Shown here: piece by piece, positions 4,541 to 10,000 of the stretch | Numbering within the stretch: position 1 is the stretch's first letter | Layout: every line of letters begins with the position of its first letter | NCBI GenBank assembly: GCA_020216985.1 | Contig: JAIWOH010000010.1 | Span: 1-10,000, forward strand | DNA length: 10,000 bases | Reading direction: 5' to 3' | Origin: Nitrospira sp. | GTDB taxonomy: Bacteria > Nitrospirota > Nitrospiria > Nitrospirales > Nitrospiraceae | Notes under the pieces: model-generated | Told to the model about the DNA's origin: nothing | What the model saw: only the letters and a program-made list of their open reading frames with translations | Database searches by the model: none | Program-made: the position numbers and the translations under genes

Positions 4541-5743
4541 ATGGCAACCAATACCCATCGCCCGTTAACGCTCGCGGATTTTGACCTTTCTCTGGAAAGG
4601 GGATTCCTGCCGCCCGATCCTCAGGAAACGGTCCCTGAGTGCGCCACGCTGAATTTCCTTGGCCGAGAATTGCCGAAATTGCTGAGCGCTCGCCATGTTC
4701 GCCGGTTCATTGACGAACATGCGTCGTTGCTCCCCCCTGTTCCGGCCGGTTGGGGCGACGCCGAACATCGAGCCGCGATGCGGATTCTTTCTTTCGCCGG
4801 TCACGCCTACGTGTGGGAAACGCCCGATCATCCGGCCGACAAAATTCCCGCCCAACTTTCCGGCCCCTGGCATGAGATCGCCAAACGAGTCGGCCGTCCC
4901 CCCGTCCTGTCCTACGCCTCTTATGCACTGGATAACTGGCGCCGGTTGGACAAGTCGAAACCCATTCAGCTCGACAATATCGTCTTGCTCCAGAACTTCC
5001 TCGGCGGGATCGATGAAGAGTGGTTCGTCGTGGTCCACATTCAGATCGAACGGCAAGCGGGCCCCGGTCTCGACGGTTTAGTGAGAGCAATCAACGCCGC
5101 CTCGCAGGCAAACGACGAGGAAGTTTGGTCCGGCCTGCGAGCCTTGGCCGCCGCACAAATCGCCATGCGGGACACTTTGCTTCGGATGAAAGAACGCTGC
5201 GATCCCTACGTGTATTACACGCGGGTCAGGCCCTACATCCACGGGTGGAAAAACAACCCGTCGTTGCCCTTCGGCCTCGTCTATGACGAGGTCGAAGCCT
5301 ACGGGGGGCAGCCGCGGCAGTTTCGCGGAGAGACCGGCGCCCAAAGCACCATCGTCCCCTGCCTGGACGCGGGACTCGGTATCCGTCACGCCCCCGACCC
5401 CTTGACAGTCTATCTCCAGGAGATGCGGGACTACATGCCGCCGCGCCACCGTGCTTTCCTTGAGACATTGGAAAGTCGAACCGACGATCGGGGACGCCCC
5501 CTGCTGTCGGGCTATGTTCGCGATCGCAAGCGGCGTCATCCCGAACTGTGGTCCGCCTACTGTGATTGCGTCGACCTTTTAGCCCAGTTCCGGACAATCC
5601 ACATCGGTTACGCCGATGAGTACATCCATCGTCAACACCAAACCCACGCAAGCAATCCCACCTCGGTAGGGACCGGCGGCACTCCCTTCATGACGTATCT
5701 CCAAAAGCACTTGGACGAAACCAAACAGGCCGTCGCGTCCTAG
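4541..5743 (+). CDS. Indoleamine 2,3-dioxygenase family heme protein
   Basis: This 400-residue protein has the hallmarks of the IDO family (PF01231). IDO enzymes insert O2 into tryptophan to give N-formylkynurenine using heme. The C-terminal half follows mammalian IDO closely: HGWKNNP (234-240), GLVYDEVEAY (245-254), then a GAQS motif (266-269), YLQEMRDYMPPRHR (291-304), and GTGGT (377-381), the flexible substrate loop. H354 in FRTIH is the expected proximal heme ligand. By alignment from memory, human F163, S167 and R231 correspond to F162, H166 and R230. The substrate-carboxylate arginine is therefore kept, and the Ser-to-His change is as in IDO2. There is no signal peptide, so it is cytoplasmic. 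The ATG follows a weak AAGGG. Tryptophan may not be the natural substrate, since other indoles or PrnB-like chemistry are possible. A PF04199 hydrolase lies 0.6 kb away. Confidence 0.9.
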   Translation: MATNTHRPLTLADFDLSLERGFLPPDPQETVPECATLNFLGRELPKLLSARHVRRFIDEHASLLPPVPAGWGDAEHRAAMRILSFAGHAYVWETPDHPADKIPAQLSGPWHEIAKRVGRPPVLSYASYALDNWRRLDKSKPIQLDNIVLLQNFLGGIDEEWFVVVHIQIERQAGPGLDGLVRAINAASQANDEEVWSGLRALAAAQIAMRDTLLRMKERCDPYVYYTRVRPYIHGWKNNPSLPFGLVYDEVEAYGGQPRQFRGETGAQSTIVPCLDAGLGIRHAPDPLTVYLQEMRDYMPPRHRAFLETLESRTDDRGRPLLSGYVRDRKRRHPELWSAYCDCVDLLAQFRTIHIGYADEYIHRQHQTHASNPTSVGTGGTPFMTYLQKHLDETKQAVAS

Positions 5744-6322: not shown

Positions 6323-7159
6323 TTATCGAGTAATAACCGCGATGATGCGCAGGGGTCCGCCGGTTCCTCCCGCAATTTTCATGGGCAGGGCGATCACCAC
6401 GAAGTCGCGATCCGGCAATTGATGTAACTCGGCAAGGTTTTCAAAGACCGGCACCTGATGCTCAAGAAGGGTTACGTGTGTGTCGAACGTGGTCGATCGA
6501 CCATGGTCGATCGATGCCGTATCGATGCCGACGGCCTTGACCCGCCGCTCGCGGATCAGCCAGGCGGCCGCGTCCGGGTGCAGGCCGGGAAACCGCAGCG
6601 CTCGCACGCCGTCTGATCCTCGCTGCGCTGTCCCCAGATACCGCTCCCGCGAAGGCCAGTACCGCCCATAGCCCGTTTCCAACAACACGATGGCTCGATC
6701 TGGAATTCGCCCATGCTCGGCCTCCCACCGTTCGAGGTCCTGAACCGTCACGCGATAATCCCGATCCTCCTCGCAACGGGACTTGACGTCGACGCGAACA
6801 GCCAGGCCGATCAACCCGTCCAACGGAATCTGATCGACTGTCTGCCCGCCCCGTGAAAAATGAACGGGAGCATCGATGTGCGTCCCGCCGTGTTCGGGCA
6901 TCTCGATGCGATTCGAGGCGTAATAATAGCCGCCTTCCGACTGCTCCGCATGTTGGACGATCAGACGGAACTCCTGTTCGGTCGGCCACACGATCGTGTC
7001 CGATCCGAACGCATTGGTCAAATCGACGAACCGGGCACGATCCCAGTCAAAACTCCCGTGCCGACCATCATGAGCGCAGCCAGTCATGAACGTCGTCGTC
7101 CAGACCATGACCAGCCCCAACGGCATCCGCCTGAATGTCCCCCACGGAGACGACTTCAT
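6323..7159 (-). CDS. Cyclase-family lipoprotein, kynurenine formamidase-like hydrolase
   Basis: This belongs to the metal-dependent cyclase / kynurenine formamidase / isatin hydrolase family (PF04199). With the start at 7159 it has 278 residues. The signature HGGTHIDAPVHF is at 90-101; its histidines and aspartate bind the metals and act in hydrolysis. FDTHVTLLEHQVPVFENL at 225-242 supplies the second His/Glu set, and GGTGGPLR at 264-271 is a family-typical end. The N-terminus has two arginines, a hydrophobic run and FMTGC, a lipobox-like site with C28, so an exported lipoprotein is likely. The frame is open to a GTG at 7240, but that start has no RBS and would bury the signal. Start confidence is only moderate, because ATG 7159 also lacks a good RBS. 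Substrate is not decided: N-formylkynurenine, isatin or another cyclic amide or ester is possible. The dioxygenase homologue nearby favours the first. Confidence 0.87.
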   Translation of the reverse strand: MKSSPWGTFRRMPLGLVMVWTTTFMTGCAHDGRHGSFDWDRARFVDLTNAFGSDTIVWPTEQEFRLIVQHAEQSEGGYYYASNRIEMPEHGGTHIDAPVHFSRGGQTVDQIPLDGLIGLAVRVDVKSRCEEDRDYRVTVQDLERWEAEHGRIPDRAIVLLETGYGRYWPSRERYLGTAQRGSDGVRALRFPGLHPDAAAWLIRERRVKAVGIDTASIDHGRSTTFDTHVTLLEHQVPVFENLAELHQLPDRDFVVIALPMKIAGGTGGPLRIIAVITR

Positions 7160-7308
7160 GGCCACAATCGACCCCAAACCGACGACGGGAAAAGAATAAG
7201 AATCTGAGGCCGGCTCCTCTGCTTTCGATGCTGAGGTCACGGCGCAAACCAGTGTTTCAAGCGGATCGCAGCACGATCGCCGAACAAACGGTGGGCCGAC
7301 GGAGACGT

Positions 7309-8209: not shown

Positions 8210-8644
8210 ATGAACGAGTTCAAATCAGGGTTTTTCATGGGAGGTGAAAGCTGCAACGGCCGGGTCCTCGTCGTGGACGATGAGCCGGACATCCGCAAGG
8301 TGGTCAGAATGACCCTTCAAAAAGCCGGATACGAGGTCCTCGAAGCGGAAAACGGGGCGAAGGCGATCGAAACGATCAATACGGGTGAGAATCGTCTCCT
8401 GTTGGACGTCATCATCTGCGACATCCGCATGCCGAAGGTCAACGGCATCGAGGCCATTTCGTATTTTCGTCAGAATTACCCTCGCGTCCCGCTCATCGTG
8501 CTGACGGGATTCCCCGACACCGACATGGCGACCTCGCTCTTGCGACAGGGCGTCGTCGATTACCTGGTCAAGCCGGTCGAAGGCGAGAAACTCAAAGCTT
8601 CCGTCGCCCGCGCGATGGAGCAAAGGGAGCTGGCGAGACTGTGA
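8210..8644 (+). CDS. Single-domain response regulator (CheY-like receiver)
   Basis: A 144-residue protein that is almost only a receiver domain, after a short N-terminal extension of about 17 residues. The acidic pocket is D23-D24 (VVDDEPD). The phospho-acceptor is D71 in the ICDIRMP strand end, the switch threonine is T99 in VLTG, and K121 is in the LVKP motif. No output domain follows, so it should act by protein contact or as a phosphate shuttle in a phosphorelay. Its stop overlaps the start of the histidine kinase gene, so the two are translationally coupled and the kinase is the probable phosphate donor. A sigma-54 promoter and an NtrC-like site precede it. Specific signal and target are unknown. 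Confidence 0.95.
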   Translation: MNEFKSGFFMGGESCNGRVLVVDDEPDIRKVVRMTLQKAGYEVLEAENGAKAIETINTGENRLLLDVIICDIRMPKVNGIEAISYFRQNYPRVPLIVLTGFPDTDMATSLLRQGVVDYLVKPVEGEKLKASVARAMEQRELARL

Positions 8645-9789
8645 TGAATCCTGAACGCACCAAATCGGACCATTCGGCAAGCCGGCCTCCAGCCCCCGTC
8701 ACAACCACCGATCGGTTGTCCGGTCTCGACGGTTATGAGGGGACGCCCGCTCCGACTCCAACGAAAATCGCGATCGTGGGGGCAGGTCGGGGAGGTACGG
8801 CGATGCTGACATTGCTCCACCAACTTCGGACCGTCGTGGTGGTCGGCGTCGCGGACCGATGCGCCGACGCTCCTGGACTCCGACACGCACACGATCTCCA
8901 CGTGCCGGTATTCAGCGAGAGCGCCGACCTCCTGCGCGTCACGAAACCGGATCTGGTGATCGACGTCACCGGAGACGCGGCCATGGAGAAAACCCTCCGG
9001 CAACAGGTCCCGGCGGGAGTCGGCATCTTGAGCGGTCCGTCTTGCCGCCTGCTGTATGACTTGGTCCAGCAGGAATTCGCGCTCCAGGCCCAATTGCTCC
9101 AAACGGACAAACTCGCGGGAATCGGATCGTTCGCCGCGGGCATCGCCCACGACATGAACAACCCGCTCCAACTCATTTTGGGCCTGGCCGAAAACCTCAC
9201 CGAAGAGCAGGATCTCGAAGCGGTTCACCTCCAAGCGCGGGACATCGTCGAGGCCGTCAAACGCACGACGGCCATCTGTCGGGATCTTACGTCCTACTCC
9301 CGACGAACCTCCGCCCGTTCCGATCAGGCGGTCCCCATCAACGCCAAACTGGACGAGGCGCTCAAAATCGCCCGCTACGCCGTCGGACTTCAAGACATCG
9401 AAGTGCGCAAGTCCTATTGGCCCGAGGCGACGGCGATCGGCAATCCCGACGAAATTCTCCACGTGTTCATCAATCTCATCACCAACGCCGTCCAGGCTAT
9501 GGAACGCGGCGGCGTGTTGACCATCGTCACCTCCACCGTCGACGGAGCGACGGTCGTCAAAATTTCCGACACGGGGCACGGTATCTCGCCTGACGTGATG
9601 GAACGGATTTTTGAGCCGTTCTTCACGACCAAACCGCCCGGCAAGGGCACGGGGCTCGGACTGTACAACATCAAAAACGTCGTTCACCGCATGCACGGCT
9701 CCATCGACGTCGAGAGCCAAGTAGGACGGGGCACGACGTTCACCGTCACCTTTCCGCATGACGTGCGCGTGGAAGACGGAAACCCGTAA
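8641..9789 (+). CDS. Soluble histidine kinase with N-terminal Rossmann-like domain
   Basis: A 382-residue kinase with an uncommon sensor part. Residues about 41-140 look like the dinucleotide-binding half of a Gfo/Idh or homoserine dehydrogenase-like oxidoreductase. KIAIVGAGRGG contains a GxGxxG loop (47-52). A second strand ends in VADRC, whose D72 would favour NAD(H) over NADP(H). PDLVIDVTG follows at 103-111. No catalytic oxidoreductase domain comes after it. A helical linker (142-157) leads to the dimerisation helix with phospho-accepting H170 in AHDMNNPLQ. The ATPase domain has its N box (N278, N282), G1 DTGHG (310-314), F box FEPFF (324-328) and G2 GTGLGL (336-341). There is no membrane segment, so it senses inside the cell. 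The start is GTG 8641 or ATG 8644, overlapping the response regulator stop. NAD(H) sensing is inference. Confidence 0.9.
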   Translation: MMNPERTKSDHSASRPPAPVTTTDRLSGLDGYEGTPAPTPTKIAIVGAGRGGTAMLTLLHQLRTVVVVGVADRCADAPGLRHAHDLHVPVFSESADLLRVTKPDLVIDVTGDAAMEKTLRQQVPAGVGILSGPSCRLLYDLVQQEFALQAQLLQTDKLAGIGSFAAGIAHDMNNPLQLILGLAENLTEEQDLEAVHLQARDIVEAVKRTTAICRDLTSYSRRTSARSDQAVPINAKLDEALKIARYAVGLQDIEVRKSYWPEATAIGNPDEILHVFINLITNAVQAMERGGVLTIVTSTVDGATVVKISDTGHGISPDVMERIFEPFFTTKPPGKGTGLGLYNIKNVVHRMHGSIDVESQVGRGTTFTVTFPHDVRVEDGNP

Positions 9790-10000
9790 TGAGCACGACA
9801 CCATCAGCCGCCCCTCGCAAGACACGTTGGGGACTCAAAGCCAAGTTGATCGTCTCGATGCTCGTGGTCGGAACCGTCCCGCTCGTCATCGGGCTCGGCA
9901 TGGCATTCTGGCAAGGATCGAAGGAAATTCGGGATGTAAGCGGGGAAAGCTTCAAAGCCCTCGCCACGGAAGCAGCCAGGAAACTCGATCTCCTTGTAGC
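9789..10000 (+). CDS. Membrane-anchored sensor protein, N-terminal part only
   Basis: The gene runs off the window; 70 codons are visible. Its ATG overlaps the stop of the kinase (TAATG), so it is the third gene of the same coupled operon. After a basic cytosolic start (RKTRWGLKAK, residues 10-19) comes a membrane helix at about 20-41. It is followed by an amphipathic helix with GESFKALATEAARKLDLL (52-69). This layout is typical of transmembrane sensors, where a Cache-type or helical extracytoplasmic domain follows the first helix and a HAMP, kinase, cyclase or chemoreceptor domain follows later. The output domain lies outside the window and cannot be named. Confidence 0.8.
   Translation, partial: MSTTPSAAPRKTRWGLKAKLIVSMLVVGTVPLVIGLGMAFWQGSKEIRDVSGESFKALATEAARKLDLLV

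Follow-up and report, generated by a model that had tools for sequence, protein, structure and literature searches.

Gene Organization and Domain Architecture of the Window Kinase

The window, that is, the whole stretch of 10,000 nucleotides that was analysed, is a complete contig from Nitrospira. Close to its end, three genes follow one another on the forward strand. The first (8210..8644, +) encodes a CheY-like single-domain response regulator of 144 amino acids without an output domain (Response_reg, E 2.6e-29). The second (8641..9789, +), an open reading frame of 382 amino acids, encodes a soluble histidine kinase with the architecture Rossmann-HisKA-HATPase_c, which we call class A. Of the third gene (9789..10000, +), which encodes a membrane histidine kinase, only the beginning lies before the contig end; its ATG at 9789 overlaps the TAA of the class A kinase. 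The 70 amino acids of the membrane kinase inside the window matched no Pfam family. The start of the class A kinase was placed at 8641 in the initial annotation, but the likelier start is the ATG at 8644, where the receiver gene ends in an overlapping TGA (8642-8644).

The kinase opens with a weakly conserved N-terminal tail (residues 2-40; 8644..8760, +), followed by a Rossmann-type input domain (residues 41-138; 8761..9054, +). This domain contains a dinucleotide-type glycine loop, GAGRGG (residues 47-52; 8779..8796, +), the residue D72 at the acidic end of a predicted second strand (8854..8856, +), and the motif PDLVIDVTG (residues 103-111; 8947..8973, +), of which T110 and G111 are conserved. 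The segment SGPSCRLLYDLV...TDKLAG (residues 131-162; 9031..9126, +) leads without a gap into the kinase and is a putative signalling helix. Next come the HisKA dimerisation and phosphoacceptor domain (9127..9309, +; Pfam residues 163-223, E 3.9e-9), with H170 (9148-9150, +) in AGIAHDMNNP, and the HATPase_c catalytic domain (9439..9759, +; Pfam residues 267-373, E 2.8e-27). The two features of a two-component histidine kinase were both present (Pfam, alignment): the phosphoacceptor His in HisKA, and the N and G boxes in HATPase_c. In the latter, N278, N282, D310, G312, G336, G338, and G340 were invariant in 30 relatives. Translation of the reading frame placed the glycine loop, D72, PDLVIDVTG, and H170 exactly where the initial annotation had them, and the intact HisKA/HATPase core that it described behind a Rossmann-type region was borne out by Pfam.

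The protein has no transmembrane part. In its N-terminal part, general Rossmann models were the sole matches, and of these only DapB_N (42-131, E 9.4e-6) exceeded its cut-off, with 26.2 bits against 25.6; GFO_IDH_MocA (42-109, E 1.4e-4) and NAD_binding_3 (E 3.8e-4) stayed under theirs. The Pfam scan of the kinase reported no C-terminal catalytic domain of an oxidoreductase, in agreement with the initial annotation, and neither a PAS, GAF, or REC input domain nor an N-terminal winged-helix DNA-binding domain of the Rex type. An Rfam search of the window gave zero matches. Elsewhere in the window, an indoleamine 2,3-dioxygenase-like gene (4541-5743, +; IDO, E 9.9e-84) lies near a cyclase-family gene (6323-7240, -; PF04199), an arrangement reminiscent of tryptophan degradation.

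Conservation of the Rossmann-Type Domain

The Rossmann GxGxxG loop and the acidic end of strand 2 are present in the domain family of the window kinase. In a domain alignment of 30 sequences, the residues equivalent to G47, G49, G51, G52, A54, G69, and G132 were invariant, and so was D72 in an alignment of 30 full-length class A sequences. We then counted 230 distinct domain copies, taken from 294 matching stretches with copies of more than 35 gaps excluded. G47 was found in 228 of the 230, G49 in 222, and G52 in 221, while D or E occupied position 72 in 229. All four of these residues, which the initial annotation had singled out for comparison with homologues, occurred together in 214 of the 230 copies, across output types, and are conserved. 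Residue 73, directly after D72, was K or R in 106 of the 230, and the glycine loop was lost in distant members such as L222 and L229.

Pairwise dN/dS between the window gene and five relatives was about 0.11-0.24 for the domain and about 0.04-0.13 for the kinase part, with dS above 1 in the two most distant of the five pairs. Judged from these codon comparisons, the Rossmann-type domain is under purifying selection. The N-terminal tail (residues 2-40) had the highest dN of the three protein parts in four of the five comparisons (exception, L011), and it was missing or divergent in relatives. The distance from G132 to H170 was 38 residues in all 54 class A hosts caught by the search pattern, which recovered 54 of 107 class A copies. 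One class A kinase (L331:3571-4626, genome G901) scored only 40 bits in its domain, against the usual 130-165, a possible case of decay; the same genome also encodes a receiver with the domain inserted, of the kind described below.

Relationship to Known Protein Families

Pfam showed no model of this domain in particular, nor was there one among the NCBIfam matches listed. For the window protein, 25 of 92 NCBIfam matches were listed, and those with a stated stretch all lay in the kinase part. The kinase core was closest to AtoS among the NCBIfam matches listed (2.3e-49) and to ZraS in a single-sequence PDB search (1.2e-34), in which the best 60 of 68 matches were kinases only. Profiles of the domain were then compared with solved structures. 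A profile of 30 copies matched acylating acetaldehyde dehydrogenase (1.3e-5), Rex (5.7e-4), and inositol dehydrogenases (0.0023). A more diverse profile of 44 copies matched acylating acetaldehyde dehydrogenases (5.1e-8 to 5.2e-6), a putative NAD-dependent dehydrogenase (4.8e-5), Gfo/Idh/MocA (8.2e-5), and Rex (0.001), together with weak matches outside the NAD enzymes: glutamate racemase (6e-4), glycinamide ribonucleotide formyltransferase (0.001), and ribosomal protein uS2 (0.004). By profile comparison, the solved relatives of the domain are mostly NAD enzymes. The domain had initially been described as Gfo/Idh-type; the likeness holds as a profile match at about 8e-5, but the N-domain of acylating acetaldehyde dehydrogenase scores better (5.1e-8). 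In the printed alignment, the D72 column is not acidic in the top-scoring solved relatives. The NCBIfam model of acetaldehyde dehydrogenase also matched L087 and L248, far under its cut-off.

The printed alignments with acylating acetaldehyde dehydrogenase show a common loop, second strand, and (A)PGLxxA-like helix, but the match spans only about 60-95 residues of the domain and the catalytic C-domain of the enzyme is absent here. The NAD-binding domains of Gfo/Idh/MocA (PF01408), DapB (PF01113), and homoserine dehydrogenase (PF03447) gave borderline Pfam matches in most scanned members; however, the scores were near or under the curated cut-offs, and the catalytic parts of these enzymes are missing. 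The NADH-sensing repressor Rex resembles the domain in being a non-catalytic Rossmann sensor, with profile matches of 5.7e-4 and 0.001. According to an excerpt of PMC2883068, C-terminal helices hold the Rex homodimer together, and its Rossmann domain binds NADH. Rex begins with its own winged-helix DNA-binding part, whereas the Rossmann domain studied here precedes a kinase, AAA+, GGDEF, or MCP part.

Sensor kinases of the NtrC/ZraS/AtoS kind sense via periplasmic or PAS parts. The window kinase shares their type of kinase core, but its input is a Rossmann-type domain and the protein is soluble. Bacillus KinA, on the other hand, is likewise a soluble kinase with proposed control by NAD+, but its proposed NAD+ site is PAS-A and not a Rossmann domain; as far as the excerpt of PMC5552956 goes, the NAD+ signal at PAS-A (Kolodkin-Gal 2013, as cited there) was later contested.

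Class A Operons and the Class B Kinases

The operon setting of class A was surveyed in 105 distinct loci, 9 of which were untestable for an upstream receiver and 55 for a downstream membrane kinase. In 95 of 96 testable loci (exception, L150), the gene immediately before the kinase encodes a receiver, and a membrane kinase lay downstream in 45 of 50 (exceptions, L053, L054, L135, L147, and L158). A gene for a Tll0287-like protein followed within 4 kb downstream in 9 of 11 testable loci. In L042, the full-length relative of the membrane kinase has the architecture dCache-HAMP-PAS-HisKA-HATPase_c, and the Tll0287-like protein is also present (Pfam); a CxxCH motif, seen by eye in the latter, suggests a c-type haem. 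On the other side, genes for BolA and glutaredoxin are divergently arranged in loci of the Nitrospiraceae type, and the neighbours of the window kinase are BolA, glutaredoxin, and the two genes of the kinase operon. Near Nitrospira relatives of the window protein include P0004 and L094, the latter with 92% domain identity among the best 80 of 193 relatives. The initial annotation was correct in that a Rossmann-type input on a kinase is real, but too narrow in treating it as a single fusion, since the window kinase is one member of a large family with a nearly universal upstream receiver.

The genome of the window encodes a second copy of the domain. It lies on contig C155, is 34% identical to the first, and precedes HisKA_3 and HATPase_c, an architecture that we call class B. 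With the broad domain profile, these were the only two copies in the genome at E <1e-3, and the next match was at 0.002, so the profile does not simply catch every dehydrogenase. Of the 14 class B loci with wide flanks, all had a response regulator gene downstream and 13 had an NrdR gene upstream (Pfam on L009); two more conserved genes were, by eye, like glyA and rplI. In the broader set, NrdR was upstream in 35 of 45 testable loci. An automatic count found a receiver downstream in 36 of 46, which is an undercount, for L062-L064 were missed although the gene is present. NrdR is a nucleotide-sensing regulator, and class B kinases, that of L009 among them, directly adjoin it. When the class B protein was compared with plasmids, the matches listed were all below 60% identity. 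Two of the five covered only query positions 126-356, the kinase part, and three covered 83-97% of the query at 24-29% identity.

Distribution and Modular Re-use of the Domain

The domain was found in 97 of 98 relatives. With profile A1, it was detected at E <=1e-3 in 270 of 395 genomes of the window's phylum, in a phylum-wide search that scored at most 11 candidates per genome; the best E exceeded 1e-5 in 16 of the 270, which may hold ordinary enzymes only. In the phylum to which a MAG titled 'Deltaproteobacteria' belongs, the domain was found at E <=1e-8 in 108 of 395 genomes. It was also found in 63 of 78 genomes of the class of a Mariprofundaceae MAG, and in 101 of 398 genomes of the phylum of the latter, 38 of them outside that class. 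Viral contigs gave 64 pattern matches, among which there were zero relatives.

Gene calls across loci were the longest or best-supported open reading frames, and Pfam revealed diverse partners of the domain. It was combined with HisKA or HisKA_3 kinases, PAS-HisKA kinases, a sigma-54 activator with a Fis-type HTH, GAF-PAS-HisKA-HATPase-REC-GGDEF hybrids, and GAF-GGDEF or plain GGDEF parts, and in some relatives GAF or PAS stood next to the Rossmann-type domain. Moreover, it occurred in short proteins with an MCP signalling part. Pfam detected MCPsignal in all 3 that were scanned, and inspection by eye showed the same tail in 9 of 9. When proteins were searched with the domain of a sigma-54 member, sigma-54, HisKA_3, and GGDEF proteins came up together among 107 matches. 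The domain is a large family of input modules and not a one-off fusion.

Several variants were noted in the course of this survey. The domain-MCP proteins L310-L318, from the phylum of G420, are only 214-242 amino acids long and by eye lack a transmembrane region. Two kinase-type proteins (L262 and L263) carry two domain copies in tandem. Stand-alone members (L348-L354, 128-156 amino acids) had no shared neighbours that hinted at function. L248 was rejected as a stand-alone domain, for the contig ends inside the gene and the tail resembles the start of a sigma-54 activator. Open frames of 564-582 amino acids in four genomes looked like fusions of receiver and kinase, and this candidate was dismissed as well, since L289 shows stop codons between both genes.

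Receivers Containing the Domain

In 17 distinct proteins (16 aligned, plus L137), the Rossmann domain lies inside a receiver fold. The insertion point follows strand 4 (LTG) and precedes the helix leading to strand 5 (KP); the distance to the Lys of strand 5 is 40 residues in 10 hosts and 41 in 6. The insert ends in an EKLAG-like stretch, the same as where the kinase helix enters HisKA. The domain's last helix would continue straight into the moving part of either protein, HisKA in the kinase and helix 4 in the receiver. In the aligned insertion receivers, the phosphoacceptor Asp was kept in 15 of 16 (L288 has N) and the Thr and Lys in all 16. The loop after the Asp was two residues shorter than in the window receiver in all 16, so that phosphorylation of these receivers is uncertain.

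In the family in which insertion receivers are common, 14 of 48 genomes had them, at 15 loci. In genus g3, 9 of 14 genomes had an insertion receiver and none of the 14 had a full-length class A kinase. G096 encodes two insertion receivers, and between its receiver and membrane kinase genes only a remnant of the class A kinase is left, which matched parts of HATPase_c by tblastn (E 4.6e-11 and 1.6e-5). In G909, about 4.3 kb separate the gene of an insertion receiver from a class A operon that is intact.

Two trees bear on the origin of these proteins. In a domain-only tree (quick search over 117 columns, with SH-aLRT as the only support measure), one branch (SH-aLRT 99) united the inserted domains with class A domains and also contained a few long-branched GGDEF and other rows; the inserted domains were not one clade (4 changes). 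In a tree of the receiver part (83 columns before the insertion), a branch (98) set the insertion receivers apart among the partner receivers of class A, with weak wider placement (80). The trees therefore suggest that the domain moved into the receiver from the adjoining kinase gene, and one transfer of the kinase domain into its partner receiver would be the simplest reading. One insertion protein, L157, stands on a contig titled Gammaproteobacteria and groups closely with Nitrospirota copies; it is maybe mislabelled or misbinned.

Sigma-54 Members with Malate Dehydrogenase and nuoF

The neighbourhood of the sigma-54 members was characterised by Pfam on L344 and by tblastn on the other four loci. 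In all five distinct complete sigma-54 loci (L156, L172, L344, L345, and L346), malate dehydrogenase precedes the regulator by less than 100 bp and nuoF follows it at a distance of about 0.4-0.85 kb, both on the same strand. The other loci collected at that point had neither gene at E 1e-15 (tblastn). L344 and L172 are close relatives, with malate dehydrogenases 87% identical, so the five loci are not all independent. A sixth sigma-54-like member (L248/L347), cut by the contig end, had MmgE/PrpD upstream instead of malate dehydrogenase.

Between the regulator and nuoF, a sigma-54-like -24/-12 site (9 or 10 of 10 positions) was found in four of the five loci and was lacking in L345; in shuffle controls, 8 to 62 of 500 mononucleotide shuffles per region had such a site. 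Upstream of malate dehydrogenase, one of the five loci had a weaker -24/-12-like site. NADH is a product of malate dehydrogenase, and complex I binds it through the subunit NuoF. The cluster of malate dehydrogenase, Rossmann-sigma-54 regulator, and nuoF is a candidate for NADH-responsive control of complex I. This genomic context is the strongest functional hint for the domain, and it points towards NAD(H).

Proposed Mechanism and Alternative Explanations

Based on these observations, we propose that the window kinase responds to a dinucleotide of the cytoplasm, in all likelihood NAD(H), through its N-terminal Rossmann-type domain, and that this input domain lost, or never had, an enzyme part. 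Ligand binding would alter the packing of the two Rossmann domains in the kinase dimer, and the exit helix (residues ~134-160) would pass the change into the HisKA bundle. The change in HisKA would then set the autophosphorylation of H170 and, presumably, phosphotransfer to the co-translated receiver (8210-8644). The downstream membrane kinase (Cache, HAMP, PAS), which only gene order ties to the receiver, probably feeds the same receiver, and the operon would in this way join a periplasmic and a cytoplasmic redox-related signal. Taken as a whole, this proposal of a dinucleotide-sensing kinase with a helix relay and a shared receiver seems to us reasonably probable. That the domain family consists of NAD(H) sensors, with the window kinase included by homology, appears likely to almost the same degree. 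We arrived at the latter estimate because homology and the malate dehydrogenase/nuoF context were weighed against the counter-evidence; the context belongs to the sigma-54 members only and not to the window kinase.

A Rossmann-type sensor might also bind something else; candidates are NADP(H), CoA esters, and small metabolites, bound either together with a nucleotide or by themselves. Its best profile relatives, the acylating acetaldehyde dehydrogenases, handle CoA besides NAD, the CoA_binding model matched class B proteins (0.014, 0.0013, and 0.0015) and L248 (1.5e-6), and residue 73 is often basic. However, an acid at the position of D72 is a sign of NAD rather than NADP, and only one of the 230 copies is without it; malate dehydrogenase and nuoF beside the sigma-54 members also argue for NAD(H). 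We regard another ligand as rather unlikely, but as an explanation to be taken seriously. It is less probable still that the domain is a degenerate enzyme part, retained for dimerisation or protein docking and free of any ligand. The missing catalytic half, the loss of the loop in distant members, and the contested NAD+ signal of KinA would all fit such a module, yet nothing in the domain is better conserved than the loop and the acid, which a mere docking surface would not need. As for the fusion being an artefact of assembly or annotation, the window genome is indeed a fragmented assembly of the metagenome type (222 contigs), but the same fusion occurs in complete or near-complete genomes, including Nitrospira moscoviensis (NZ_CP011801.1) and Nitrospira defluvii (FP929003.1), and the near-universal domain match among the relatives refutes this reading, which we consider next to negligible.

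Extending the NAD(H) reading, the domain might serve as a general NAD(H) input module like PAS and GAF, placed before two kinds of histidine kinase, sigma-54 activators, diguanylate cyclases, and chemotaxis-type proteins. In one lineage, it might have been copied from the kinase into the partner receiver between strand 4 and helix 4, where NAD(H) would gate the output face directly, which would allow a later loss of the kinase. We offer this wider scheme tentatively and put its chance somewhat below even.

Significance

Outside Rex-type repressors, little is known of how bacteria read the NAD(H) pool. Nitrospira are nitrite oxidisers, in which energy arrives with little reducing power. If the NAD(H) reading is true, phosphorelays, c-di-GMP, sigma-54 transcription, and chemotaxis are coupled to the NAD(H) state through the domain, and this would matter in Nitrospira in particular. 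The domain may be a common, so far undescribed route by which cells read their own NAD(H) state. The insertion receiver would be a clean natural experiment on the relocation of a sensor from kinase to regulator, and the malate dehydrogenase/sigma-54 regulator/nuoF cluster offers a directly testable promoter.

Searches of the open-access literature yielded no description of such a domain, an absence that is provisional, as subscription papers and preprints were outside the scope. PMC1592074 contains neither Rossmann nor NAD, and the accessible portion of PMC8846402 does not contain Rossmann and has NADH in two passages only. In the databases, members of the family carry other names. P0177, a class B relative, and P0205 are kinases of the domain family misleadingly labelled 'Gfo/Idh/MocA family oxidoreductase', and a class A domain fragment (P0044) has the metagenome record name 'NADH/NAD ratio-sensing transcriptional regulator Rex'.
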